Position numbers and translations under genes: made by a program. 64,000 nucleotides of DNA from Deltaproteobacteria bacterium (GTDB lineage: Bacteria > Desulfobacterota > DSM-4660 > Desulfatiglandales > Desulfatiglandaceae), in contig JAIPDI010000021.1 in the NCBI GenBank assembly GCA_021737785.1, positions 1 to 64,000 on the forward strand, written 5' to 3'. This document shows positions 10,927 through 52,876 of this stretch, in pieces; position 1 is the first letter of the stretch; every line of letters begins with the position of its first letter. The notes below the pieces were generated by a model, which did not search any database, had not been told where the DNA came from, and saw only the letters and a list, made by a program, of their open reading frames with translations.

Positions 10927-11991
10927 TCAAACCTGTGCGCTCTTCCATCCCGCCGAGGTGATTTTCCGATTTCCCTTTGTCACCACGAGAGATTCGCATC
11001 CCGGACGTGAGTTGATGAAGCGGGTGCCGCGCTCGGGCGTCATGACAAATACCGTAGTGGAGAGGGCGTCCGCCTCCATGGCCGTGTCCGCCACGACCGA
11101 TACGCTGGTGCTTTCTTCAGGCGATCGTCCGGTGTGGGGATCCACGATATGGTGGAACAGCTTCTCTCGGTCAAAATAGATCTCATAGTTTCCGGATGTG
11201 GCAACCGCCCCGCCTGCCAGATGAATGACGTCGGGATATTGGTTTTTCTTGCGGGGATCCTGTACCGCGATGGTCCACGGCTTGCCGTCACGCCTGCAGC
11301 CCGCGGTCCGGATGTCTCCGCCGGCATTGATCAGGTGGTTGGTGATCCCGTTTCGGGAGAGAACCCCCGATGCCCGATCCACGATATATCCCTTTGCAAT
11401 GCCGTCCAGCGTAATGCCCATGCCCGGCCGTTTGAAACGAACCGTACGTCCGGTGATTTCGATGTGGGATGCATTGACCAGCCGGATGGCTTTTTCCAGC
11501 TCTGAGCTGGAGGGGGGCACGGGGTTGCCATCGGAAAATTTCTCTTTAAACAGGTCTACCAGCGGTTTCACAGAGATGTCAAAGGCCCCGTTGCTGATAC
11601 GATAATAGTCCAGCGACCTGGCAACCACCTCAGCCACCTCAGGGGGCATATCTTTCAGAAGCCCTTCCCGGTTGAGCTGGGCAATGGCGGTTGTCTGGTC
11701 AAAACGGCTGATGTCCCGCGACAGCCGATCAATCTCTAGGAAGGCCTCTCCCATGGCCGCTTCGGCCTGGTCCCTCGAGGCGTGCAGGAGGGTCATGGAG
11801 ACGAAGGTTCCCATGGCCAACCGTGTCTTGGATACTTTATAGAGCTTGCGGTTAAACCGTACGGCCTCGGCCCCTGTCGGGATAACAACGGCGGCAGAAG
11901 CAAGGCCGATACCGAGAACTCCCGAAAGCTTCAAAAAAGACCTTCGATCCATGGTTCCCGATGCATGATGCAAGCGCTCATTTCTTTTCAT
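10927..11991 (-). CDS. apbE: FAD:protein FMN transferase ApbE, Tat-exported
   Basis: A 354-residue enzyme that uses FAD to attach FMN covalently to Thr in RnfG and RnfD. The N-terminus carries a twin-arginine signal (DRRSFLKLSGVLGIGLAS), so it acts outside the cytoplasmic membrane where those Thr residues lie. Family motifs include MGTFVSMTLLHA, GAFDISVKPLV, ITLDGIAKGYIVDRAS, NAGGDIRTAG and the metal-binding VVADTAMEADALSTTVF. The start at 11991 is fixed by a perfect GGAGG 8 bases upstream; the much longer in-frame extension would run antisense-free into rnfB and is not used. It closes the rnf operon, 79 bases after rnfB. Confidence 0.93.
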   Translation of the reverse strand: MKRNERLHHASGTMDRRSFLKLSGVLGIGLASAAVVIPTGAEAVRFNRKLYKVSKTRLAMGTFVSMTLLHASRDQAEAAMGEAFLEIDRLSRDISRFDQTTAIAQLNREGLLKDMPPEVAEVVARSLDYYRISNGAFDISVKPLVDLFKEKFSDGNPVPPSSSELEKAIRLVNASHIEITGRTVRFKRPGMGITLDGIAKGYIVDRASGVLSRNGITNHLINAGGDIRTAGCRRDGKPWTIAVQDPRKKNQYPDVIHLAGGAVATSGNYEIYFDREKLFHHIVDPHTGRSPEESTSVSVVADTAMEADALSTTVFVMTPERGTRFINSRPGCESLVVTKGNRKITSAGWKSAQV

Positions 11992-12070
11992 TTTGTATTC
12001 CTCCATAATCCTGATGCCCCTGATTGTGGGAGTATGTCCCCTCTGACCGGGACCCCCAAATCGCCCTGTA

Positions 12071-12937
12071 TCAGGCCGCTGCCATAGTTGTCTGCTGAAC
12101 TCTTCTTTCGTCCTCGGAATAATTTCTGAAGATGCCCCTCGGGCATTTCTCCACACATATCTGGTTACACTCGGGGCCGAATTCCATACATTTCTGATGA
12201 TCGATCTTAACAATGCCGTCTTCCAATGCCACTGCTTTGGCCGGGCATACCTTGACGCACATTTTGCAGGAGATACAGCCCACCTTGCAGACCTCTTTAA
12301 CATCTTTTGCCGGGTCTTTGGTGCTGCACGGAACCCAGACTCTGGCCTTCAGGGGAATCAACTCTATAATCCCTTTCGGGCAGGTGCGCACACATGTCCC
12401 GCAGCCCACACAGAGACCGATATCCACCAGGGGAAAGCCGTCCTTCATGGTGATGGCGTCAAAAGGGCAGCTTTCTGCGCATTCGCCCAGGCCCACGCAT
12501 GCATACCGGCATGCGTACGGTCCGCCAAAGGCCAGGGTGGCGCCGGTACACGACCCATATCCGATGTAGTTCAGCTTTTTCCGGACATCCCCCTCGATCC
12601 TGGAACAGCGGACTGCGGCGACCATGTTTTCGACGGTGGCCATCCTTTTGCCGGATATCTCGGCAACCAGTGCGGCGACTTCCGCCTTTCCGGGGAAGCA
12701 GAGGTTGGGGGGAACATCCGGATCGTTCACGACCGCTTCGGCGTATGCCTCACATCCTGCGAAGCCGCATCCGCCTCACTGGGCCCCTGCCAGGACCTCC
12801 AACACCTCTTCCACCTTGGGGTTGGCCTCCACCGCAAACTTATGGGCCGCCAGCGCCAGACCGATGCCGAAGAAGAGGCCGATACACCCCAATACGGCTA
12901 AACCGATTAACGCCATTTTGATTAGTGCCGGATCCAT
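12071..12937 (-). CDS. rnfB: Rnf complex subunit RnfB, selenocysteine-containing (in-frame UGA)
   Basis: A 288-residue ferredoxin-like subunit that takes electrons from reduced ferredoxin. It begins with a membrane anchor (MDPALIKMALIGLAVLGCIG). Residues 49-62 read LAGAQ-U-GGCGFAGC, where the first ligand of the conserved CxxCxxxxC iron-sulfur motif is TGA (12776-12778, codon 54). The frame continues without a break into EAYAEAVVNDPDVPPNLC and four further CxxC-type clusters (CVGLGECAESCP, CVGCGTCVRTCP, CISCKMCVKVCP, CNQICVEKCP). An AGGGAG ribosome site sits 6 bases before ATG 12937. If the TGA were a stop, the protein would be cut at 53 residues inside its best-conserved motif. Selenocysteine is therefore the simplest reading, supported by fdhA in the same window. 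Confidence 0.88.
12740..12775 (-). promoter_or_regulatory. Candidate SECIS hairpin behind the rnfB UGA
   Basis: Directly after the TGA (minus strand) comes GGCGGATGC, an 18-base loop that begins GG, and GCATACGCC. The arms pair over 9 positions with one G-A mismatch. The 36-base size and the position touching the UGA match bacterial SECIS elements bound by SelB. A second, weaker pairing (GCTTCG with CGAAGC) competes with it. Confidence 0.6.
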
Positions 12938-13064: not shown

Positions 13065-14030
13065 TCAAAATATGGACATCCCTGAAAAGCCTAAAAATGC
13101 CAGGGCGAAAAGCCCGGCCACCACAAAGGCGATGGGAAGCCCCCGGTATGTCGGGGGGACATTGGCCAGTTCCAATCGTTCACGGACAGAGGACATCAAA
13201 AAGAGGGCGATCAAGAACCCCAGCCCCGCACCGAGGGCAAGCATCAGGCTCTCGAAGGCATTGTACGAGTTGTCCGCAAGGATCAGGGGAACGGCAATGA
13301 TGATGCAGTTTGCAATAACCAGCACCAGATAGACCCCGAATGCCTTGAACAGCAGCGGATTGACCTTTCTCAATATGGTATCCACCGCCTGAACCGATAA
13401 AGAGACCAGACCGATGAAGACAACGATCTGGAGGAAGTCCAACCGGTAGGGCTTAAGCACAAACTGATAGAGGAACCAGGCCATCATGGCGCTCACCACA
13501 ATGACGATGGTGAAGGTGATGCCCATGCCTACCGCGGTGGATTTTTTCTGGGATGTCCCGAAAAATACGCACAGCCCCAGGTATTTGGTAAAGACAAAGT
13601 TGTTGATGATCATGGCGCCGATGAGGATGGAGAACAGATATCCCAGGTAGACCTTCTTGACGCTGAGAATGGCTGTCCCCAGGGATTTCCCCTCAGCGGA
13701 GATATTGTCGGCCGTCAGCACATGGGGCTGATTCTGGTTGAGAGGGTCTGCGAATGACAAGATCACTGTTTTCCGGTCGGCACTGAGGGTGATATCCTGA
13801 ATCTTCAATTTGATATCCGGGTCAGGTTCTTCGTAAACCGTGTAATTGGATGGATTGCCGGCCCAGGCCTCATCCACCGGTCCGGCAAATTCGATGACGA
13901 TCTGATTGGCGTCTTTGAAGGCCGTCTTCTTTACAAAGCGATGCTCCTCGGTTGCGCACCCGCCAATCAGGAAGGCCCCGATAATAAGCAAAATAGCTGA
14001 AAACAGATAGTTTCGTCCGGAGATGTTCAT
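13065..14030 (-). CDS. rnfA: Rnf complex subunit RnfA with an N-terminal lipoprotein domain
   Basis: A 321-residue fusion. Residues 1-25 form a signal with a lipobox-like FLIGGC. Residues about 33-125 look like a Big_5/SwmB-type beta-sandwich (VIEFAGPVDEAWAGNPSNYTVYEE; LSADRKTVILSFADPL). From about residue 130 the protein is ordinary RnfA: six membrane helices with IINNFVFTKYLGLCVFFG and SVRERLELANVP. RnfA alone is normally about 190-200 residues, so roughly 125 are extra. The ATGA overlap with the rnfE stop (14027-14030) fixes the start and shows that the fusion is the translated form. Confidence 0.88.
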   Translation of the reverse strand: MNISGRNYLFSAILLIIGAFLIGGCATEEHRFVKKTAFKDANQIVIEFAGPVDEAWAGNPSNYTVYEEPDPDIKLKIQDITLSADRKTVILSFADPLNQNQPHVLTADNISAEGKSLGTAILSVKKVYLGYLFSILIGAMIINNFVFTKYLGLCVFFGTSQKKSTAVGMGITFTIVIVVSAMMAWFLYQFVLKPYRLDFLQIVVFIGLVSLSVQAVDTILRKVNPLLFKAFGVYLVLVIANCIIIAVPLILADNSYNAFESLMLALGAGLGFLIALFLMSSVRERLELANVPPTYRGLPIAFVVAGLFALAFLGFSGMSIF

Positions 14031-14653
14031 ATGCCTTTGGCCCTTCTCTTCCGGTTATAGACAAGCTCCATATAATTAAACATGGCCATCATGATCCCCA
14101 CACAAAAGAACCCGGCTGCCGGGAGGACAAAGAAAAGGAGCGGTCGAACGCCCAGGACGTCATACCCGAGAAGCGTCCCCATCCCCAACAATTCCCTGAC
14201 AAACCCAAGGGCCACCATCCCGAACATGAACCCGAGACCCATGCCGATCCCATCCCAGAAAGAGGCGGAAACGCTGTTTTTACAGGCGAAGATCTCCAGT
14301 CGCATGGTGATGATGGCAAAGGCCACAATCAGTTTAACGAAAATCCCCATCTCTTTGTAGGCCGCAGGCATGTACGCCGCAAGGACCAGATCAATGACCG
14401 TCACCCACGTGGCGATGGTCAGGGTATAGGTGGGGATTCTGATCCTGGGATGGATATAGTTTTTAATGGCCGCTATGGTGCAACTGGAAAAAACCTGCAC
14501 AAAAAGGACGGCAATTCCCAGCATGATGCCGTTCATGACCGTGGTGCTGATTCCCACTGCCGGGCACATGGAAAGGGCCAGACGAAAAATGGGATTTTCG
14601 TTCAGAATGCCGTTGGAAATCAACTGAAAATTTGTTTTTGTAGTGGCGGGCAC
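14027..14653 (-). CDS. rnfE: Rnf complex subunit RnfE
   Basis: A 208-residue membrane subunit paired with RnfA in the Rnf core. Signatures are NGILNENPIFRLALSMCPAVGIS, where Cys helps hold the membrane [2Fe-2S] centre, and KNSVSASFWDGIGMGLGF. About six hydrophobic segments are present. The start is GTG at 14653 with AAGGAG 7 bases upstream; the longer frame would run into the upstream repeat. It overlaps rnfA by four bases. Confidence 0.92.
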   Translation of the reverse strand: MPATTKTNFQLISNGILNENPIFRLALSMCPAVGISTTVMNGIMLGIAVLFVQVFSSCTIAAIKNYIHPRIRIPTYTLTIATWVTVIDLVLAAYMPAAYKEMGIFVKLIVAFAIITMRLEIFACKNSVSASFWDGIGMGLGFMFGMVALGFVRELLGMGTLLGYDVLGVRPLLFFVLPAAGFFCVGIMMAMFNYMELVYNRKRRAKGI

Positions 14654-14673
14654 TGTCTTGCTCCTTGACTGAG

Positions 14674-14723
14674 GCGGCCTAACAGCCGCAACCAAAAAGA
14701 TATTTGGTGCGCTAATGCATAGG
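14674..14723 (+). repeat. Dispersed palindromic repeat, copy 2, between rnfG and rnfE
   Basis: GCGGC-CTAACA-GCCGC, then AACCAAA, a second small hairpin (ACCAAA...TTTGGT) and a third (GGTGC...GCACC). It lies in the 115-base rnfG-rnfE gap of an otherwise tightly packed operon, so it could affect transcript processing or coupling. Confidence 0.45.
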
Positions 14724-14768: not shown

Positions 14769-15683
14769 CTAAAAAGCCACCGGAATGTCCTGGCTGGTGA
14801 TCATCGCGTCCAGCCGGTTGATCCGGTAGGCAAACTTGCCAACCATATTCTTGACGCCGTCGGTCACCGCTTTGCTGGAGATGGTCGCCCCGGTCAGGGC
14901 ATAGATGTCCTTGTCCTCATATGTGCTTCGGATGGCGTCCACCTCTCCTTGGGAAATCTGGGACCCCGTCCTTTCCCCGGCCTCCAGATACGCTTTGTAT
15001 TCATCAGGGAGGGGCTCTTTGACCACATGGAGGTCCTTTACCTTTTCAAACGGCTTTCCCTGGAATTGATTCTTGAAATAGTCCTGCGTGATCTCTGCAC
15101 CGAGACCCGGGTCCTCTTCATGCTCCATGATCTCAAGACCCAGGATCTCAAACGACGGATCCAGGGCCAGCATGACATGGATAAATGTCTTAAAGCCGGG
15201 GAACTCCCCGGGCAGCAGATAGGCCAACCGCTTCCCGCCTAACATGGCCACAATGGTGGCGTCTGCATACACAAACGTTTCAGGCGGTTTCAGGACTTTC
15301 TTCAGGGCGGCGGAGCGTTCTGCCGGTTCAGAGGCCTCTTCGGGTATCAAGTCGAGGGCATACTGATTCACAAACCGGCCGTCCAGATCCATCACCACAA
15401 GCTGGTACCCCACGCCGTCCCCTTTCCGTACAGGGAGCACATATCCCAGAGTGCTCGTATCGCCATCCGTGAGGATATACCTGTAGATGGTGTGCAGATT
15501 CAGATCAGAGGGGGCCGGATGGCTTTTGGTGTAGCCCAGCAACCCGAGCATGGTCTGTTGAACATTGACGTGTTCGTTGTGTTTTTTGGCCTTGTCCGTG
15601 ACAATGAAAACCGAGCCCATTACCAGGGCTGCAATCAGGCAAGAAACCGTAAGACCGATGACGATGCGAATAATTTGCTTCAT
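14769..15683 (-). CDS. rnfG: Rnf complex subunit RnfG, covalent flavoprotein
   Basis: A 304-residue subunit with one N-terminal membrane anchor (IVIGLTVSCLIAALVMGSVF) and a periplasmic FMN-binding domain. The flavinylation motif is YALTGATISSKAV, in which the Thr of GAT should carry FMN attached by ApbE. EEDPGLGAEI is a further conserved FMN-domain segment. It starts 2 bases after rnfD ends. At about 300 residues it is longer than the roughly 200 of many RnfG proteins, the surplus lying between the anchor and the FMN domain. Confidence 0.93.
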   Translation of the reverse strand: MKQIIRIVIGLTVSCLIAALVMGSVFIVTDKAKKHNEHVNVQQTMLGLLGYTKSHPAPSDLNLHTIYRYILTDGDTSTLGYVLPVRKGDGVGYQLVVMDLDGRFVNQYALDLIPEEASEPAERSAALKKVLKPPETFVYADATIVAMLGGKRLAYLLPGEFPGFKTFIHVMLALDPSFEILGLEIMEHEEDPGLGAEITQDYFKNQFQGKPFEKVKDLHVVKEPLPDEYKAYLEAGERTGSQISQGEVDAIRSTYEDKDIYALTGATISSKAVTDGVKNMVGKFAYRINRLDAMITSQDIPVAF

Positions 15684-15685
15684 TG

Positions 15686-16735
15686 TCAGGCACCTTTTTG
15701 AGGAGCAAAACGCTTGGGTCTAAACCATCCCTCTAATGCCGGTACGAGCGGATTCATGAGCAGAATCGCATAGCAGACACCCTCCGGATATCCGCCTTTT
15801 AAACGGATTAAGACCGTCAGTGCCCCTATACCCATCCCGAAAATCAGCTTTGCCGGGGCCTGGGACGGGGAGGTGACATAATCGGTGGCCATGAAAAAGG
15901 CCCCCAGAAAAACCCCTCCCGAGAGAATGGCCAGCAGCGGATTTCCTGTAAAGAGACGCTCCCCGCCGAACACCCAGGTAAAGAACCCCACCGACACAAT
16001 GACAGATACAGGGATATGCCAGGTGATATATTTTTTATACATCAGGAACAGACCGCCCATCAAAAGCAGGAGGGCGGATGTTTCCCCGATACATCCCGGT
16101 CTCCATCCCACAAAGAAATCAGCGTATATTGTGGACATGCTCCCGAATTTTTCCATCAGCGCATCCGGGCCATAATGCCGCAGCACATAAAGGGGGGTGG
16201 CCGTGGAAACCGCATCGATTCCCGATCCCATATACTTGAAAACAGCCGCGTCACGGATGGGAGGGAGCCAGGCAGAGGTGGCGGCCACGGGAAAGGTGGC
16301 CACCAGAAAGGCCCGGCCGATAAGGGCCGGGTTGAATATGTTGAACCCGATGCCCCCCAGGAGATGCTTGGCAACATAAATGGCCATTACCGCCCCCAAA
16401 ATGGGGATCCAATAAGGGACCCCGGGAGGGATGACATAGGCCATCAGCAGCCCGGTGATGACAGCGCTTCCATCTTTTATGGTTATGGGCCGGTGGAGCA
16501 GCTTTTGGGAGACCGCCTCTGCCGCCACACAGCTCAAGACGCTGATGGCGGTAATAATGAGCGTCTGAATACCGAATATAAAAACAGATAAGATAAGCGG
16601 CGGCAGGAGGCAGGCCACCACCGTCCACATGATTTTTTCAACGGATTCACCGCTCTTTACGTGAGGCGATACCGAGACCGTCAGCAACGGCGAACCGACC
16701 AAAGGCGATCCACTCTCTTTTTCTACCGTTTCGAT
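15686..16735 (-). CDS. rnfD: Rnf complex subunit RnfD, covalent flavoprotein
   Basis: About 349 residues. It opens with LLTVSVSPHVKSGESVEKIMW, then has nine or ten membrane helices. The motif AVSTATPLY matches the S-T-A-T flavinylation site, and IFNPALIGRAFL and DYVTSPSQAPAKLIFG are typical. The start is unusual: no ATG, GTG or TTG is well placed. The best Shine-Dalgarno, AAGGAG (16743-16748), lies 7 bases before an ATC codon (16735). The next usable start, TTG 16702, has only a weak site and would shorten the protein by 11 residues. An in-frame ATG at 16858 would overlap rnfC by about 85 bases and is unlikely. Confidence 0.88.
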   Translation of the reverse strand: METVEKESGSPLVGSPLLTVSVSPHVKSGESVEKIMWTVVACLLPPLILSVFIFGIQTLIITAISVLSCVAAEAVSQKLLHRPITIKDGSAVITGLLMAYVIPPGVPYWIPILGAVMAIYVAKHLLGGIGFNIFNPALIGRAFLVATFPVAATSAWLPPIRDAAVFKYMGSGIDAVSTATPLYVLRHYGPDALMEKFGSMSTIYADFFVGWRPGCIGETSALLLLMGGLFLMYKKYITWHIPVSVIVSVGFFTWVFGGERLFTGNPLLAILSGGVFLGAFFMATDYVTSPSQAPAKLIFGMGIGALTVLIRLKGGYPEGVCYAILLMNPLVPALEGWFRPKRFAPQKGA

Positions 16736-16773
16736 GGCACGACTCCTTAAATCAGTAAATCGGTTAACAGAAG

Positions 16774-18093
16774 CTACTTTTTTGCTTTCATTTTGGCCAA
16801 ACGGATAAACTGGACCAGGGGGCGTTTGGCCGGACAGGTATAGGCGCAGCACCCGCATTCAAAACATTCAAATACGCCGAATTGCGATGTATCCCCTGCA
16901 CGCCCCGCCTCTACATGGACGCCGATTTCATTGGGGAGAAGTCCCATGGGGCAGGCCTCCAGACACCACCCACAGCGGATGCACTGGCCGTAGGGACGGA
17001 GATCGATTTCCTTCTCGGTTAAAAAAAGGATTCCGGAGGTGGTCTTGGTAACAGGGATATCCAGGGTGGAGACGGCAAAGCCCATCATCGGGCCCCCCAG
17101 CACAATCTTGGCCAGGCCCGGCAGTGTTCCGCCCAGATAGGACACAATATCGCTGATACGGGTCCCGATTTTGACCAGGAGATTTGCCGGTCTTGCGATA
17201 CCGCGACCCGAAATCGTCATAATTTTTTCGTATAAGGGCTTTTGCAGCACCACAGCGTCGTAAATCGCCTTGGCGGTTCCCACATTCTGGACGATGACGC
17301 CTACATCAAAAGGGAGCCCGAAACCGGGGACCTTACGGCCGGTAATACTCTGTATCAACTGTTTTTCCGATCCCTGAGGGTATTTGACCTTCAGGGGCGA
17401 TACCGTTACATTGAAATCGTTGGACGCCTCGGCGCAGGCGGTTTTCATGGTTTCGATGGCGTCAGGTTTGTTGGCTTCAATGGCGATTTGGCATTCTTTA
17501 ATGCCCAGGATGCGCAAAATGATCTTGGCCCCTTCAACCACCTTTTCAGGTTGCTCGAGCATGAGGCGATGATCAGCGGTCAGATAGGGCTCGCATTCAG
17601 CGCCATTGAGGATGAGGGTGTCCACCTTTGCGGCGGGAGGCGGGGAGAGCTTAACATGGGTGGGAAACCCGGCCCCCCCGATTCCCACGATCCCGGCATT
17701 CTTGACCCGATCCAGCAGTTCATCCTTTGAAAGTGCCTGCCAGTCAGATTCCGGCCATTCCCTCGGTGGGGCCTCGGTATCTGTCTGGATAACGACGGCC
17801 GGGGCCTTTACTGCAATGGGATGGGCCGATGCACCGATTGTCTTCACGGTCCCGGTGACGCTGCTGTGGATAGCGGCCCCAAGGCCCTTTTCCACAACTC
17901 CTATGACATCCCCTTCGGCAACCTGGTCTTTCTTCTTGACCAACGGCGTACAGGGGGCGCCGAAGTGCTGATTGAGAAGAATCTCCACGTCTTCGGGTAT
18001 GGGCAGGGTTTCAACTGCCAGATGTTCTGTGAGGTCCTTTCCCTCGGGTGGATGGATCCCCCCTTTCGGAAAGGTAAGCAGTGATTTATTCAT
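16774..18093 (-). CDS. rnfC: Rnf complex subunit RnfC
   Basis: A 439-residue peripheral subunit carrying the NADH/FMN domain (GIVGIGGAGFPTHVKLSPP, ILNGAECEPYLTADHRLMLE) and two C-terminal [4Fe-4S] clusters (CIRCGWCLEACP and CFECGCCAYTCP). It opens with FPKGGIHPPEGK, the usual RnfC entry. It starts 43 bases after ribF. RnfC is the first rnf gene of the operon, in the common order C-D-G-E-A-B. Confidence 0.95.
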   Translation of the reverse strand: MNKSLLTFPKGGIHPPEGKDLTEHLAVETLPIPEDVEILLNQHFGAPCTPLVKKKDQVAEGDVIGVVEKGLGAAIHSSVTGTVKTIGASAHPIAVKAPAVVIQTDTEAPPREWPESDWQALSKDELLDRVKNAGIVGIGGAGFPTHVKLSPPPAAKVDTLILNGAECEPYLTADHRLMLEQPEKVVEGAKIILRILGIKECQIAIEANKPDAIETMKTACAEASNDFNVTVSPLKVKYPQGSEKQLIQSITGRKVPGFGLPFDVGVIVQNVGTAKAIYDAVVLQKPLYEKIMTISGRGIARPANLLVKIGTRISDIVSYLGGTLPGLAKIVLGGPMMGFAVSTLDIPVTKTTSGILFLTEKEIDLRPYGQCIRCGWCLEACPMGLLPNEIGVHVEAGRAGDTSQFGVFECFECGCCAYTCPAKRPLVQFIRLAKMKAKK

Positions 18094-41321: not shown

Positions 41322-44300
41322 TCATGCCTCCTCTCCTTGGTCCGGGTAGGCCTGTTGTGCCTGTCGGAGGGCGTCCCAGGCAGACGCAATCAACGGCGTC
41401 ACCTCCATGTCTGATTCAGGAGAAAGGGAACTGACGCCGAAGGCGGCCCTGATGTGAACGGTTTCGCCCTCAATCTGGAAAGGCATATGGTTTATCAGAG
41501 TGTTCATCCGGCTGCAAAAGGCGCGGGCCGTGTCGCCATCAATATGGATAAGCAACCCGGCAAACTGGCTGCTGTCGTAACGGCAGAGGAGGTCCTCCTC
41601 TCTGAGATGCGCTTTGATAAGTCTTCCGGCCTCTGCAATGAGATGGTCAATTCCACACTGATTGTACCGGGCATTCAGATCTGAAAGATTCTCCAGTGTG
41701 AGGATAAAAAGAGAGATGGGGGTCCTGTGCCTGCGGGATCTGGCGATCTCCCTTTCCAGCATGGTCAGAAAGAAACTGCGAGTGTAGAGACCGGTCGGCC
41801 GGTCGATGATCGTCTCCTTCAAATAGGTGTTGGTCAGATGTTCCAGACGGTCGCACAGGATGGTCATGAGATTGAAAAAGAACCGATGGGCCGTGGGGGG
41901 GTACAACCATTGTAGACGTCTGATCATTCGGTCGTTGATTTGAAGAAGTTCCGTCCTTTCGGTTGCAATGACGGTGGCAGATCGCTTGCAGGAGCGGATC
42001 ATCCCCATCTCTCCGACCACATCTCCGCTTCCAAGGGTGGAAATCACCCGTTTGAACCCCTGAGCCCCATCCCGATCCGCCTCGGAGAGGTCCACCACTT
42101 CCATCGCCCCCGAGATAATGGCATACATGGAGTCGCTGACTTCCCCTTTTCTGAAAATGAGGTCGCCCCTTTCATGCACCTTTAACGCTCCGGCCATCAA
42201 GACATAATGGACCTGTGTGCGGGAAAGACCTTTGAAGAGGGGTATCCCCTGCTGTGGGTCTTTTCCCAATTTAAGCTTGAGCAGATCCCAGAGGGTTACC
42301 AGTTCCACATGGAGCATGAGCGAAGGGAGAAGGAAGAGATCCGCCGCCAGGGCAGAGACCATGGTAATCATCATCAAGAGGCCGAACACGGCAGTGGGCT
42401 TGAAATTGGACAGCATCAACACGGAAAATCCGAGGCTTATCGTGAAGGTGGTGAACAGGATCGGCTTTCCCAGGTGACGAATGGTCTTACTCAGGGCCGT
42501 TTCCTTATTGAGCTCTGCTTTGAATTCCCGGTTATACCCCACCAAGTAGTGGATGGTGTCATCGACGGCCAGGCCGATGGCGATGGTGGCGACCAGACTG
42601 GTCGCCATTGAAAGAGGGATCCCGAACCATCCCATTATACCGAAGGTGACGACGATGGGAAAACAGTTGGGAAGAAGTGCAATGGCCCCGACCTTATAAG
42701 ACATGAACAGCATGAACATGATGGCAAACACGAGAACAAGGGTCAGCCCCAGGCTCTTGACTTGGCCTTCTGAAATCAGCTGACTGCTGTGGGAGATGAC
42801 CATGCCGAACCCTGTCACCTCGAAAGACATTTCGTCTGGAAAGGTCCTGTGGAGATAGTCTCGAATTTTTTTCTCGGTGGTGAGAAAATCGACGGAGCTG
42901 GAGATATGGGTCCTCAGCATAAGATTGGTCTGAGAAAATTCCGGGGAGGCGAATTGCAACAGCATCTCCTGACCTAACATGGATTTGAAGTTGTTCATCA
43001 GCATGCGGACCTCAAAGGGGGCCTCCGGCAGGACATAGAAGGTGGGATTGTATTGGTTGCCCGCGTAATTGACCAGCTTGAGGTAGTCCGCAAGGGAGAT
43101 GGTCTTGTCCACGCCCGGCAGGGAATTGAGAAACTCTTGTATCTTCTCGATCTTCTTCAGGTTCTCTGGATCTTCAAAATACCCGTCTTGGCGGCCGGCA
43201 AGGACCACGTTCAAAGGAAAACTCCCGGCCATATCCTGGTAGATATCGTGAAAATGTCGGGCCACCGGCGTATCCTTTTTAAAAAATTCAACCGGATTGG
43301 TCTCCACCTGTATGCGGGACATGCCGATCAGCCCTACGACGCCGATGACGACGATCAGGGGGAGGGTGATCTTCTGATGCTTCAGATTGAGGTGGATAAT
43401 GGTCGAGAGGAGGCGATCCATGGCCCGGCTCTGGAAAGATGGGGAGACCATAGAACGCTTCGGGAAAGGGAGAAGACCCATTACCGCGGGCACAAATGTG
43501 AGGAGGAGAATGAGCAGCGAAAAGATGCCGAAGCAGGAAAATACGGCAAATTGGCGGATATCGTTGACCTGGCTGACCAGCAGAGAGCCTAACCCTATAA
43601 TGGTGGTGACCACGGCAAGGGAGGTGGGAAATCCCAGCCGGCTGAAACATCGGACGGCCGCCTCCCGGGGGGTGGCCGATTGTTCCACCGAATCAAAGTA
43701 CTCCGGGAATATATACATGGCGTAGGCGGTCCCCACCGCGATCAGAAATACCGGTACGATCATGGTCAGCAGGGACAGGGGAGTCCCGGTCCAGGCCATG
43801 AGACCGAAGGTCCAGATCAGGCTGATGAGCACTGTGCCCGAAGGGATCAGGATCCCGCGCAGGTTTCGGAAAAGAAGGAAGAGAACCGTGGCAATCAGGA
43901 AGAAGGTCGCGATGGGAAGGGTCAAGAAGTCTTGCTGGGTGAATTGGGCCAGGGCCGATGAGACAATCGGCATGCCCACCTGATAGAGGGAAAATGCATT
44001 CTGATACGCGTCAATCAAGCCGTTGACCGCATGGATGACCCGCTCCTTCTGATCAATATCCTCCAATACAAGGGTAATCGCCGTGGTTTTGCCGTCGTCG
44101 GATATCAGGTTTCTCTGAAAGAGGTCAACGGCAGACACGACCTCCTGGAAGTCGGTAAGACGCCATCTGTCTGTGATGTCCATGTCCTTCTTGATGCCGG
44201 GAAGGCTGATGACCCGTTTCACCCCATGGATTTGGGAAAGGGATTGGGCCAGCTGTGCAATCCGGTCGAAGGTTTCAGGATCAAAAACCCCTGTTGTTCT

Positions 44301-44534
44301 TGCCACAACCAGGATGATTTCTTCGCAGCCGAATGTCTCCTTGAACCGGTGGTATGTCAGGGTCTCGGGCAGATCCTCGATGGTGAGGTCATAGATGGAT
44401 GTCTCAAATCTGAGGGAAGGGAGGTGTGAAGCAAAGAGGAGGGTGATAAGTACCGTCAGGAGGATGACCCGGCCGGGATGATATACCATATGCCTGAGCC
44501 ATGATTCGGGGCGCAACCATTCAGGGAGGCGCAT
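41322..44534 (-). CDS. RND/MMPL-type exporter fused to cNMP-binding and degenerate GGDEF domains
   Basis: About 1070 residues in three parts. Residues 1-755 form an RND-superfamily permease with two six-helix blocks, large loops and the intramembrane acids in AVDDTIHYLVGYNREF. Residues about 765-865 are a cyclic-nucleotide-binding domain (VHERGDLIFRKGEVSDSMYAIISGAMEVV; SGDVVGEMGMIRSCKRSATVIA). Residues about 910-1065 are a GGDEF fold (DRPTGLYTRSFFLTMLEREIARSRR), with RYDSSQF in place of GGDEF, so cyclase activity is unlikely. The start at 44534 is preferred (GGGGGA 7 bases upstream). A strong terminator separates it from hynB. The cargo is unknown. Confidence 0.85.
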   Translation of the reverse strand: MRLPEWLRPESWLRHMVYHPGRVILLTVLITLLFASHLPSLRFETSIYDLTIEDLPETLTYHRFKETFGCEEIILVVARTTGVFDPETFDRIAQLAQSLSQIHGVKRVISLPGIKKDMDITDRWRLTDFQEVVSAVDLFQRNLISDDGKTTAITLVLEDIDQKERVIHAVNGLIDAYQNAFSLYQVGMPIVSSALAQFTQQDFLTLPIATFFLIATVLFLLFRNLRGILIPSGTVLISLIWTFGLMAWTGTPLSLLTMIVPVFLIAVGTAYAMYIFPEYFDSVEQSATPREAAVRCFSRLGFPTSLAVVTTIIGLGSLLVSQVNDIRQFAVFSCFGIFSLLILLLTFVPAVMGLLPFPKRSMVSPSFQSRAMDRLLSTIIHLNLKHQKITLPLIVVIGVVGLIGMSRIQVETNPVEFFKKDTPVARHFHDIYQDMAGSFPLNVVLAGRQDGYFEDPENLKKIEKIQEFLNSLPGVDKTISLADYLKLVNYAGNQYNPTFYVLPEAPFEVRMLMNNFKSMLGQEMLLQFASPEFSQTNLMLRTHISSSVDFLTTEKKIRDYLHRTFPDEMSFEVTGFGMVISHSSQLISEGQVKSLGLTLVLVFAIMFMLFMSYKVGAIALLPNCFPIVVTFGIMGWFGIPLSMATSLVATIAIGLAVDDTIHYLVGYNREFKAELNKETALSKTIRHLGKPILFTTFTISLGFSVLMLSNFKPTAVFGLLMMITMVSALAADLFLLPSLMLHVELVTLWDLLKLKLGKDPQQGIPLFKGLSRTQVHYVLMAGALKVHERGDLIFRKGEVSDSMYAIISGAMEVVDLSEADRDGAQGFKRVISTLGSGDVVGEMGMIRSCKRSATVIATERTELLQINDRMIRRLQWLYPPTAHRFFFNLMTILCDRLEHLTNTYLKETIIDRPTGLYTRSFFLTMLEREIARSRRHRTPISLFILTLENLSDLNARYNQCGIDHLIAEAGRLIKAHLREEDLLCRYDSSQFAGLLIHIDGDTARAFCSRMNTLINHMPFQIEGETVHIRAAFGVSSLSPESDMEVTPLIASAWDALRQAQQAYPDQGEEA

Positions 44535-44576
44535 CGGCATATCCCCCATGACCACATGTACCTCTTTATTGCCTGC

Positions 44577-49813: not shown

Positions 49814-52800
49814 TTATGCCTTTCTCACATTGACCATGAAGGCCTTGGTTTCAGGGATCCTGGTATTGGGATCGCCGGTGGACGGGGTCAGCAGGTTGGC
49901 GGAATCGCCGCCCTCCTTGGGATGTACCCATCCAAAATGCCACGGGAGACCGACCTGGTGGACCGTGGTCCCCTGGATCGTGAAGGGCCTGAATCGGATG
50001 GTCACCATGGCCACGGCCTCGAGCTTGCCGCGGGCCGATTCAATGATCACCTTTTCGCCGTTCTTGATTCCCCGCATCTTGGCCAGTTCCTGACTCATCT
50101 CCACAAAGAGCTGGGGCTGGGCCTCAAGCAGCCATGGCTGCCAGCGGGTCATGATGCCGGTCTGCCAATGTTCACACACCCGGTAGGTACTGGCCACAAA
50201 AGGATATTTGGGGTCACACGACTTATAGATATCCATTTTGGTCTGATACGTCGGCGCCACCGGGTTGACCAGTTGGCCGGAAATAAGGTTCTTTTCCACC
50301 GGACATTCCATCGGTTCGTAGTGTTCGGGGAAAGGTCCGTCCGCCAACCCCGGGCCGAACACGTGGGCATGCCCTTCCGGCTTCATAATAAAAGGATACT
50401 TGGTTGCGGGATTGGGGGTGCCGTCCGCCTTGAGCATGGGCGGCCATCCGCCGTCCGGCACATCGCCGACCCAGCCGCCTTTTCCGCCGCCGGCATTGGG
50501 ATCCCAGGCAATCACCGGATGTTCCTTGTCCCACGGCTTTCCATATTTGTCTACGGATGCGCGGTTGTAGATAATCCGGCGGTTGACCGGCCAGCACCAG
50601 GACCATCCCAGGTTGAGACCGATGCCGGACTTCTCCCTCTCCCGCCTTGCGGCCATATTCCCCTTGCCGGTATAGGAGTTGCAGTAAAGCCAGTTGGCGC
50701 TGCTGGTGGAGCCGTCATTCTGGAGAAATGCAAAACTCGGAACGAGTTCGCCCTTCTTGTAGAGCGTTCCTTTGATGGTGACATCCTTCAGGAAATAGCC
50801 GTTGATCTCTTTGGCCATGGCATGGGCGTCAAACTCGCCGTGCTTGGTGTAATCCCACTTGAGATTGACGATGGGTTCGGGAAAAATCGCATCCTTGTCC
50901 TGCTTGTAGAGATATTTCAGCTTTTTCCCCAGTTGCATCAGGATATCGCCGTCCGACCAGGCCTGGCCAGGCGGATTCGCCGCCTTGTACCGCCACTGCA
51001 TCCAGCGGCCGCTGTTGGTGATGGACCCTTCCTTTTCCACTGAGACGGAACAGGGGAGCATGAAGACCTCTGTCTTGATCTTTTTGGGGTCCATGCCCGG
51101 GCCCTTCCAGAACGAACCGGTCTCGTTGTCAAAGATATTGACATTGACCATCCAGTCCAGCTTGGCCATGGCCTCGCGGTTCTTGTTGGCGTTGGCCCCT
51201 GAGGCTGCCGGATTCTGACCCCATGCAAAAAATCCTTTGAATTTTCCCTTATACATTTCGTCAAAGAGGTCCAGCCATGAGTAGGTAACGCCGTCATCCA
51301 GCTTGGGAAGCCAGTTGTACCCGAAATCATTCTCCTTAGTGGCCTTGTCCCCGAAAAAGGACTTGAGAAGGCTGACCGAGTATTTCGAATAGTTGCCCCA
51401 CCAGTTGGCGCTCAAGGGATCGTTGGTCTTGGGCGTATACTTTTCATTATAGGCGGCCAGGGTGGGCTGGGATGCCTTCGGAGTCTTGAGATATCCAGGC
51501 CAGATATGAAACAGGATGCAGTGATCCGTTGATCCCTGGACATTGGACTCCCCCCTCAGGGCATTGACGCCGCCTCCGGCGACCCCCATATTCCCCAGCA
51601 ACAGCTGAATCATGGCCATGGTCCGGATATTCTGGACCCCCACCGTATGCTGGGTCCACCCCATGGCGTACATGATGGTTCCGGCCTTCCCTGTCTGACC
51701 GGTGGCCGCGTACATCTCGTAAACGGCCTGGAGATCTTCTTTCGGGGTCCCGGTGATGGCTGAGACGGTTTCCAGGTCATACCGGCTGTAGTGTTTCTTG
51801 AGCAACTGGAGAACACAGTTGGGATCCTGGAGCGACCGATCCTTTTTGGGGATCCCTTTATCGTCCTTTGCAAAGGCCCAGGTGCTCTTGTCGTACTTTT
51901 TCGCCTTGGGATCATAGCCTGAAAAAAGGCCGTCATTAAAATTAAAGGCGTCGGTTACAATAAAGCCCGCATTGGTGTACTCGGCCACATACTCGGTAAA
52001 ATATTTGTTGTTGTCGAGGATATACTTGATCATGCCGCCCAGAAAGGCGATATCCGTCCCTGATCGCAATGCGGTGTAAAAATCCGCCTTGGAAGAGGTC
52101 TGGGTGAAACGGGGGTCTACGCTGATGAGCTTGGCGCCATTCTTCATGGCCTCGGTCACCCATTTAAAGGAGATGGGGTGGTTGGCGGCCGCATTGGACC
52201 CCATAATGAGAATGCAGTCGCTGTTTTTGATATCGATCCAGTGATTGGTCATTGCGCCGCGTCCGAACGACTCTGCCAGAGCCGCAACAGTGGCGCTGTG
52301 TCAGATACGGGCCTGGTGCTCGATGTAAACCAGTCCGAGGGACCGCATGAGGGCCTGGATGAGCCAGCATTCTTCATTATCCAGGGCAGCGCTCCCCACA
52401 TTCGCTATGGCCGTGGTGCGGTTGACCGTCTGGCCCTTGCCGTTCTTTTCCTCAAAGCTCTCGTCCCGGGTCTTTTTGATCCGTTTGGCAATGGTCCAGA
52501 GGGCCCAGTCCCAGGATACCTTCTGCCACTGGGTGCTGTAAGGAGCACGGTAGAGCGGGGTTGTCAGCCGGCTGTCATTGTTGGCCAGTTGACTCAGGGC
52601 CGCTCCCTTGGCGCAGAGGGACCCTTCATTGATCGGATGATCCGGATCTCCCTCGATGTTGATGATTTTTCCTGCCCCTGCCTCCCCGGTGCTGCAGATC
52701 AAGCCGCAGCCCACCGCACAATAGCAGCAGATGCTGGTTGTTTCCTTGGCAAAGCGAAGTTTCAAGGTCTGGGCGTGAGATTTGAATGGCTTCAAATCAA

Positions 52801-52876
52801 GGCCTAATCCCAGGATCGCAACGCCTGCGGCAGAAGCCCCGGTGATCTTAAAGAAATCACGACGCGTAACGTTCAT
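49814..52876 (-). CDS. fdhA: Formate dehydrogenase alpha subunit, selenocysteine-containing
   Basis: A 1020-residue Mo/W-bisPGD enzyme oxidising formate to CO2. A Tat signal (TRRDFFKITGASAAGVA) is followed by the [4Fe-4S] motif CCYCAVGCGLIC...GSLC. Codon 192 is TGA (52301-52303): the reading runs LVYIEHQARI-U-HSATVAALAESFGRGAMTNH, which is the normal place for selenocysteine in formate dehydrogenases, followed by the conserved His. About 18 bases after the UGA is a GGCUCU-type loop like that of E. coli fdhF. A reader that treats TGA as stop sees two separate genes (52301-52876 and 49814-52252), but it is one gene. Confidence 0.95.

Follow-up and report, generated by a model that had tools for sequence, protein, structure and literature searches.

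In the rnfB gene of this deltaproteobacterium and of its relatives within the class, selenocysteine (Sec) probably stands in for the first of the cysteines that bind the [4Fe-4S] cluster of FdI, and rnfB would thus be a selenoprotein gene. The gene lies in the 64,000-nucleotide stretch of DNA analyzed here (the window; Table 1), and Sec insertion at its in-frame UGA, codon 54, is strongly supported by sequence comparison. A hairpin immediately 3' of the codon would direct SelB and tRNA-Sec to insert selenocysteine at this position, where it would take the place of the first of the four Cys ligands of the single FdI cluster. The family has already been catalogued as a predicted selenoprotein under a generic name, and the new part is its meaning for Rnf.

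Identity of RnfB and its gene cluster

Protein models, domains and gene context identify the window protein as RnfB, the Rnf subunit for electron input. Its best model is NF005503 of NCBIfam (437 bits, cut-off 252), for which the current NCBI name is RnfABCDGE subunit B; TIGR01944 (RnfB) is passed as well (95 bits against 69), and the Pfam domains FeS (PF04060) and Fer4 are present. After codon 54 the frame stays open for 234 residues up to a TGA stop at 12071-12073, and the NF005503 score bears out the initial annotation, which had read this continuation as RnfB. The architecture is complete, consisting of an N-terminal transmembrane helix (residues 3-33 in a predicted structural model), the four-ligand FdI motif and tandem ferredoxin domains, with one ligand U instead of C. 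The same arrangement of transmembrane helix, FdI, FdII and FdIII is found in the solved RnfB structures of Clostridium tetanomorphum (7zc6; E 4e-56) and Acetobacterium woodii (9eri; E 2e-55), to which the window protein is 34-40% identical and which it also matches in fold comparison, although both of these carry Cys at the first-ligand position of FdI.

Table 1. Positions of the genes and sequence elements of the window discussed in the text
Feature	Positions	Strand	Basis or remark
apbE (flavin transferase)	10927..12303	minus	Pfam ApbE 164-438
rnfB	12071..12937	minus	288 codons + TGA stop, read through TGA codon 54
FeS (PF04060-type) FdI motif U54-C57-C62-C80	12698..12778	minus	Pfam and alignment
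Predicted SECIS element	12740..12775	minus	Fold and synonymous-site test, Sec versus Cys groups
In-frame TGA codon 54, predicted selenocysteine	12776..12778	minus	First ligand position of FdI [4Fe-4S] motif; aligned TGA in relatives
rnfA with N-terminal extension	13065..14030	minus	Pfam Rnf-Nqr at residues 133-318
rnfE	14027..14695	minus	Pfam Rnf-Nqr
rnfG (FMN-binding)	14769..15683	minus	Pfam
rnfD	15686..16858	minus	Pfam
rnfC	16774..18093	minus	Pfam; no TGA in frame
fdhA (formate dehydrogenase-N alpha)	49814..52876	minus	TIGR01553, 1504 bits; one in-frame TGA, its own Sec codon 192

The gene order of the cluster is intact (rnfC-D-G-E-A-B-apbE), with a riboflavin kinase/FAD synthetase gene upstream. 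The true start of rnfD probably lies about 36 codons inside the open reading frame, as the upstream part contains stops in relatives, and the real start of apbE must be downstream of the end of rnfB, because the open reading frame given in Table 1 overlaps that gene. The extension of RnfA places about 130 residues ahead of the Rnf-Nqr domain, with a signal of lipoprotein type (LIGGC) followed by an unassigned domain, and is kept in relatives L010-L032. A second RnfB, of a long type, is encoded elsewhere in the same genome (G000:C61:13269-14060) in a 720-residue frame without TGA, and Sec and Cys forms of Rnf therefore appear to coexist in one cell. Elsewhere in the window, a single long open reading frame on the minus strand (41322-44555) joins an RND (HAE3-like) transporter to a CRP-like domain and a GGDEF domain.

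Codon 54 among relatives

The TGA occupies the position of the first Cys of the CX2CX4CX17C arrangement, C54-X2-C57-X4-C62-X17-C80. In an alignment of 25 RnfB sequences, C57, C62 and C80 are invariant and U54 is aligned with the ligand Cys of the solved structures; Sec forms strictly retain the whole FeS motif together with these three remaining cluster cysteines. The initial annotation had placed the codon at the first Cys of an LPGANCGxCG-type motif, and the position holds in the alignment, while the motif itself actually reads AGAQUGGCGFAGC.

Among the ten closest public relatives, nine have TGA at the same rnfB codon and the remaining one has TGC. Of the 30 rnfB matches that exceeded the family cut-off in a search of 85 genomes of the class, 27 carry TGA and a few have Cys; the initial annotation had proposed to look for such aligned U and C at this site. 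The TGA falls exactly at codon 54 in all 26 TGA-containing sequences compared, and in one further partial gene, and all other orthologues have TGC or TGT there, including those of wider relatives from Desulfobulbales, other classes, Bacteroidales and Clostridia. Neither TAA nor TAG was seen at the site among the compared rnfB genes. No conserved TGA was found in the other Rnf subunits of the window and the relatives, where internal stops lie in leaders or at ends, or are single TAA or TAG errors. By these counts, Sec-type RnfB is widespread, and a large group of bacteria of the sulfate-reducer type appears to carry it.

These comparisons bear directly on readings in which no Sec is inserted. 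A sequencing or assembly error, with TGC read as TGA, would take a single base change in a draft genome, but the same TGA recurs in some 27 separately assembled genomes from many genera, with different surrounding codons, and this explanation was rejected as having practically no chance of being right. Reassignment of UGA across the whole genome was likewise rejected, since rnfB itself ends in TGA and the effect is specific to the site. It is also highly improbable that the UGA is a true stop, yielding a membrane peptide of 53 residues plus a soluble ferredoxin with a start of its own. A 219-residue open reading frame does begin 3' of the TGA, with a GTG start at 12730, but the resulting product would lose U54, C57 and C62 and break an FdI motif whose residues before and after the TGA are conserved; moreover, the Cys orthologues are single proteins, and UGA alone, never UAA or UAG, occurs at the site. 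Of the outcomes that the initial annotation had held against a selenoprotein, a miscalled TGC is thus contradicted by a TGA common to many independent genomes, and a set of close relatives with only Cys and no conserved hairpin is contradicted by relatives that are mostly of the Sec type, with selection on the downstream hairpin.

Selenocysteine machinery and the candidate SECIS

The initial annotation had also called for a search for selA, selB, selC and selD, and all are present in the organism's own genome, with scores of 617 bits for selA, 397 bits for selB, 373 bits for selD and 74 bits for tRNA-Sec (selC). The selD gene itself has an in-frame TGA and is thus Sec-containing, and the Sec-type fdhA noted earlier in the same window was confirmed, with a single in-frame TGA. 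Among the 27 genomes with Sec-type rnfB, selB was found in 23 and a tRNA-Sec match over the cut-off in 25, a few of these matches being weak; no genome lacks both, assemblies without one having the other. In four genomes (G049:C277, G050:C307, G052:C174 and G053:C262), selB adjoins a divergent tRNA-Sec-like gene (56-59 bits), and in two of the four this is a second selB copy. Such pairs possibly represent a second selenocysteine or allo-tRNA system.

The minimum-energy fold of the sequence following codon 54 is a hairpin with a 4-bp lower stem (12772-12775/12740-12743), which begins directly after the UGA, and an 8-bp upper stem (12758-12765/12747-12754) closed by a GGA apical loop (12755-12757). 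The upper stem and loop span nucleotides 14-32 counting from the U of UGA, and the loop contains a G, as for bacterial SECIS elements. The apical loop lies at roughly the distance from the UGA that it has in E. coli fdhF. The hairpin of SECIS size described in the initial annotation does exist, with 9-bp arms and one mismatch (12760-12768 with 12732-12740), although its loop has 19 bases rather than 18; it was set aside as probably not the functional one, because the tighter stem is the minimum-energy fold.

Taken alone, the window hairpin is not significant (z of -1.5 against dinucleotide shuffles; p of about 0.29 against synonymous shuffles), and no Rfam SECIS family match was found in the window. 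The signal emerges from comparison of groups, where the synonymous-site test gives a mean z of -1.03 for Sec genes (n = 26 distinct) and -0.06 for Cys orthologues (n = 27; Mann-Whitney p = 3.5e-5, an optimistic value, as are the group p-values generally, because the comparisons ignore shared ancestry). Elsewhere in the Sec genes, z ranges between -0.68 and +0.36. The signal comes from third codon positions that are either paired in the stem or part of the loop: Gly codons end in C in 25/26 Sec genes versus 13/27 Cys genes, Phe/Tyr codons end in C in 22/26 versus 11/27, and the apical Gly codon ends in a purine in 24/26 versus 10/27. Downstream of the UGA, synonymous sites favor an apical hairpin with the size and position of a SECIS, and they do so in Sec genes alone. 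Covariation in the stem was looked for, but no compensatory double changes were found; their lack is expected under protein constraint, but makes for weaker evidence than true covariation.

A tree of RnfB built with the Sec column masked requires five changes between Sec and Cys states, compared with a mean of 20 for shuffled states. Sec forms dominate the bacterium's own order, early branches included, several close relatives do well with Cys-type RnfB, and the tree strongly supports the Cys form L017 as sister to the Sec form L068. The L017 gene retains 7/8 stem pairs, perhaps as the remnant of a SECIS.

When this peptide is recoded with random synonymous codons, a mean of 6.5/8 stem pairs is kept. 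The stem is thus largely dictated by the peptide, and the Cys motif therefore looks pre-adapted for conversion to Sec. This ease, together with the small number of state changes and the L017/L068 pair, would suit a history in which Sec, although inserted and bound to the cluster, brings no advantage, having arisen by simple Cys-to-Sec drift from near-SECIS CGGCGFAGC coding in selenoprotein-rich lineages. We consider such neutrality unlikely, as many genera of the class have retained Sec and the hairpin has stayed under selection, despite its insertion costs in selenium and translation speed.

A probable selenium ligand for the FdI cluster

Passages on FdI in the C. tetanomorphum structure paper describe this domain as mobile and its cluster as deduced rather than seen, with a [4Fe-4S] cluster assigned from the four-Cys arrangement and a shuttle role proposed in which FdI swings back and forth from the fixed FdII/III domain to the iron site that RnfA and RnfE enclose (PMC9588780). 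A 2025 review gives, where it treats FdI, the same role and a single [4Fe-4S] cluster in the flexible domain (PMC12174285). Because the published structures do not resolve the FdI cluster, even Cys is a presumed ligand there. From the ligand position of U54 and the retained partner cysteines, we infer that Sec binds this cluster. In the proposed shuttle, FdI carries electrons between the docked ferredoxin clusters and the membrane [2Fe-2S] center at RnfA and RnfE, and, by homology, the Fe-Se bond may tune this electron transfer. We tentatively suggest, as one possibility, that the mobile FdI holds a natural [4Fe-4S] cluster with one Sec ligand and that selenium adjusts the rate or potential of transfer under the small energy spans available to anaerobes.

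It is conceivable, though in our view improbable, that Sec is present mainly in a non-ligand role, with U54 and C57 forming a redox switch, or a selenosulfide that guards FdI from oxidation when the cluster is lost. The spacing of U54 and C57 fits UxxC, which is a classic selenoprotein redox motif in Table 1 of a recent review (PMC13188914), but a bound cluster would occupy both residues, and the other three cluster cysteines and the FeS motif are kept in Sec forms, as expected with a bound cluster.

Ligation of the FdI cluster by Sec would give new content to an existing entry. PRK07118/NF005503 is listed in Table 1 of two surveys as a predicted selenoprotein with motif UxxC (PMC9312934, 2022; PMC13188914, 2026), and its members (ABC78902.1, WP_258165141.1) resemble the window protein at the level of model and motif, sharing NF005503 and the UxxC Sec. 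The finding is thus less novel than initially supposed. The entries name the family only as "Fe-S cluster domain-containing protein", with no mention of RnfB and no cluster assignment or function (PMC9312934; PMC13188914), and the passages found in the main text of the GOS paper, which the 2022 list cites for this family, do not name it (PMC2398784). A search of 5.4 million open-access papers turned up no discussion of selenocysteine or selenoproteins in connection with RnfB, the handful of matching papers appearing unrelated by title and abstract.

Sec occurs in other iron-sulfur electron carriers, as the HdrA, MvhD/FrhD, HgcB and CopZ-like 2Fe-2S selenoproteins tabulated so far illustrate, and several of these occur in bacteria of the same kinds as those considered here (PMC13188914; PMC2702500); they are, however, proteins unrelated to RnfB, and no membrane ion pump includes any of them. 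Selenoproteins listed as "Predicted NADH:ubiquinone oxidoreductase, subunit RnfC" (PMC5029168) are like Rnf in name and, judging by the table in PMC13188914, are probably the RnfC-like PrdC of proline reductase rather than Rnf; the RnfC of the window, unlike them, has no TGA. For nearly all families in which Sec may bind a metal, direct Sec-ligand-metal interactions still need confirmation, according to the 2026 review in its treatment of such families (PMC13188914).

For annotation, the finding carries a warning: when a gene caller takes all UGA codons for stops, the rnfB genes of such genomes will be split or truncated, and Rnf can therefore be scored as incomplete. The natural pairs of Sec and Cys RnfB offer a test of the effect of selenium on a cluster without catalysis. 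If Sec does bind the FdI cluster, this would be a widespread natural case of an electron-transfer iron-sulfur cluster with selenium among its ligands, and it would sit at one defined step in an ion pump that has been studied in detail.
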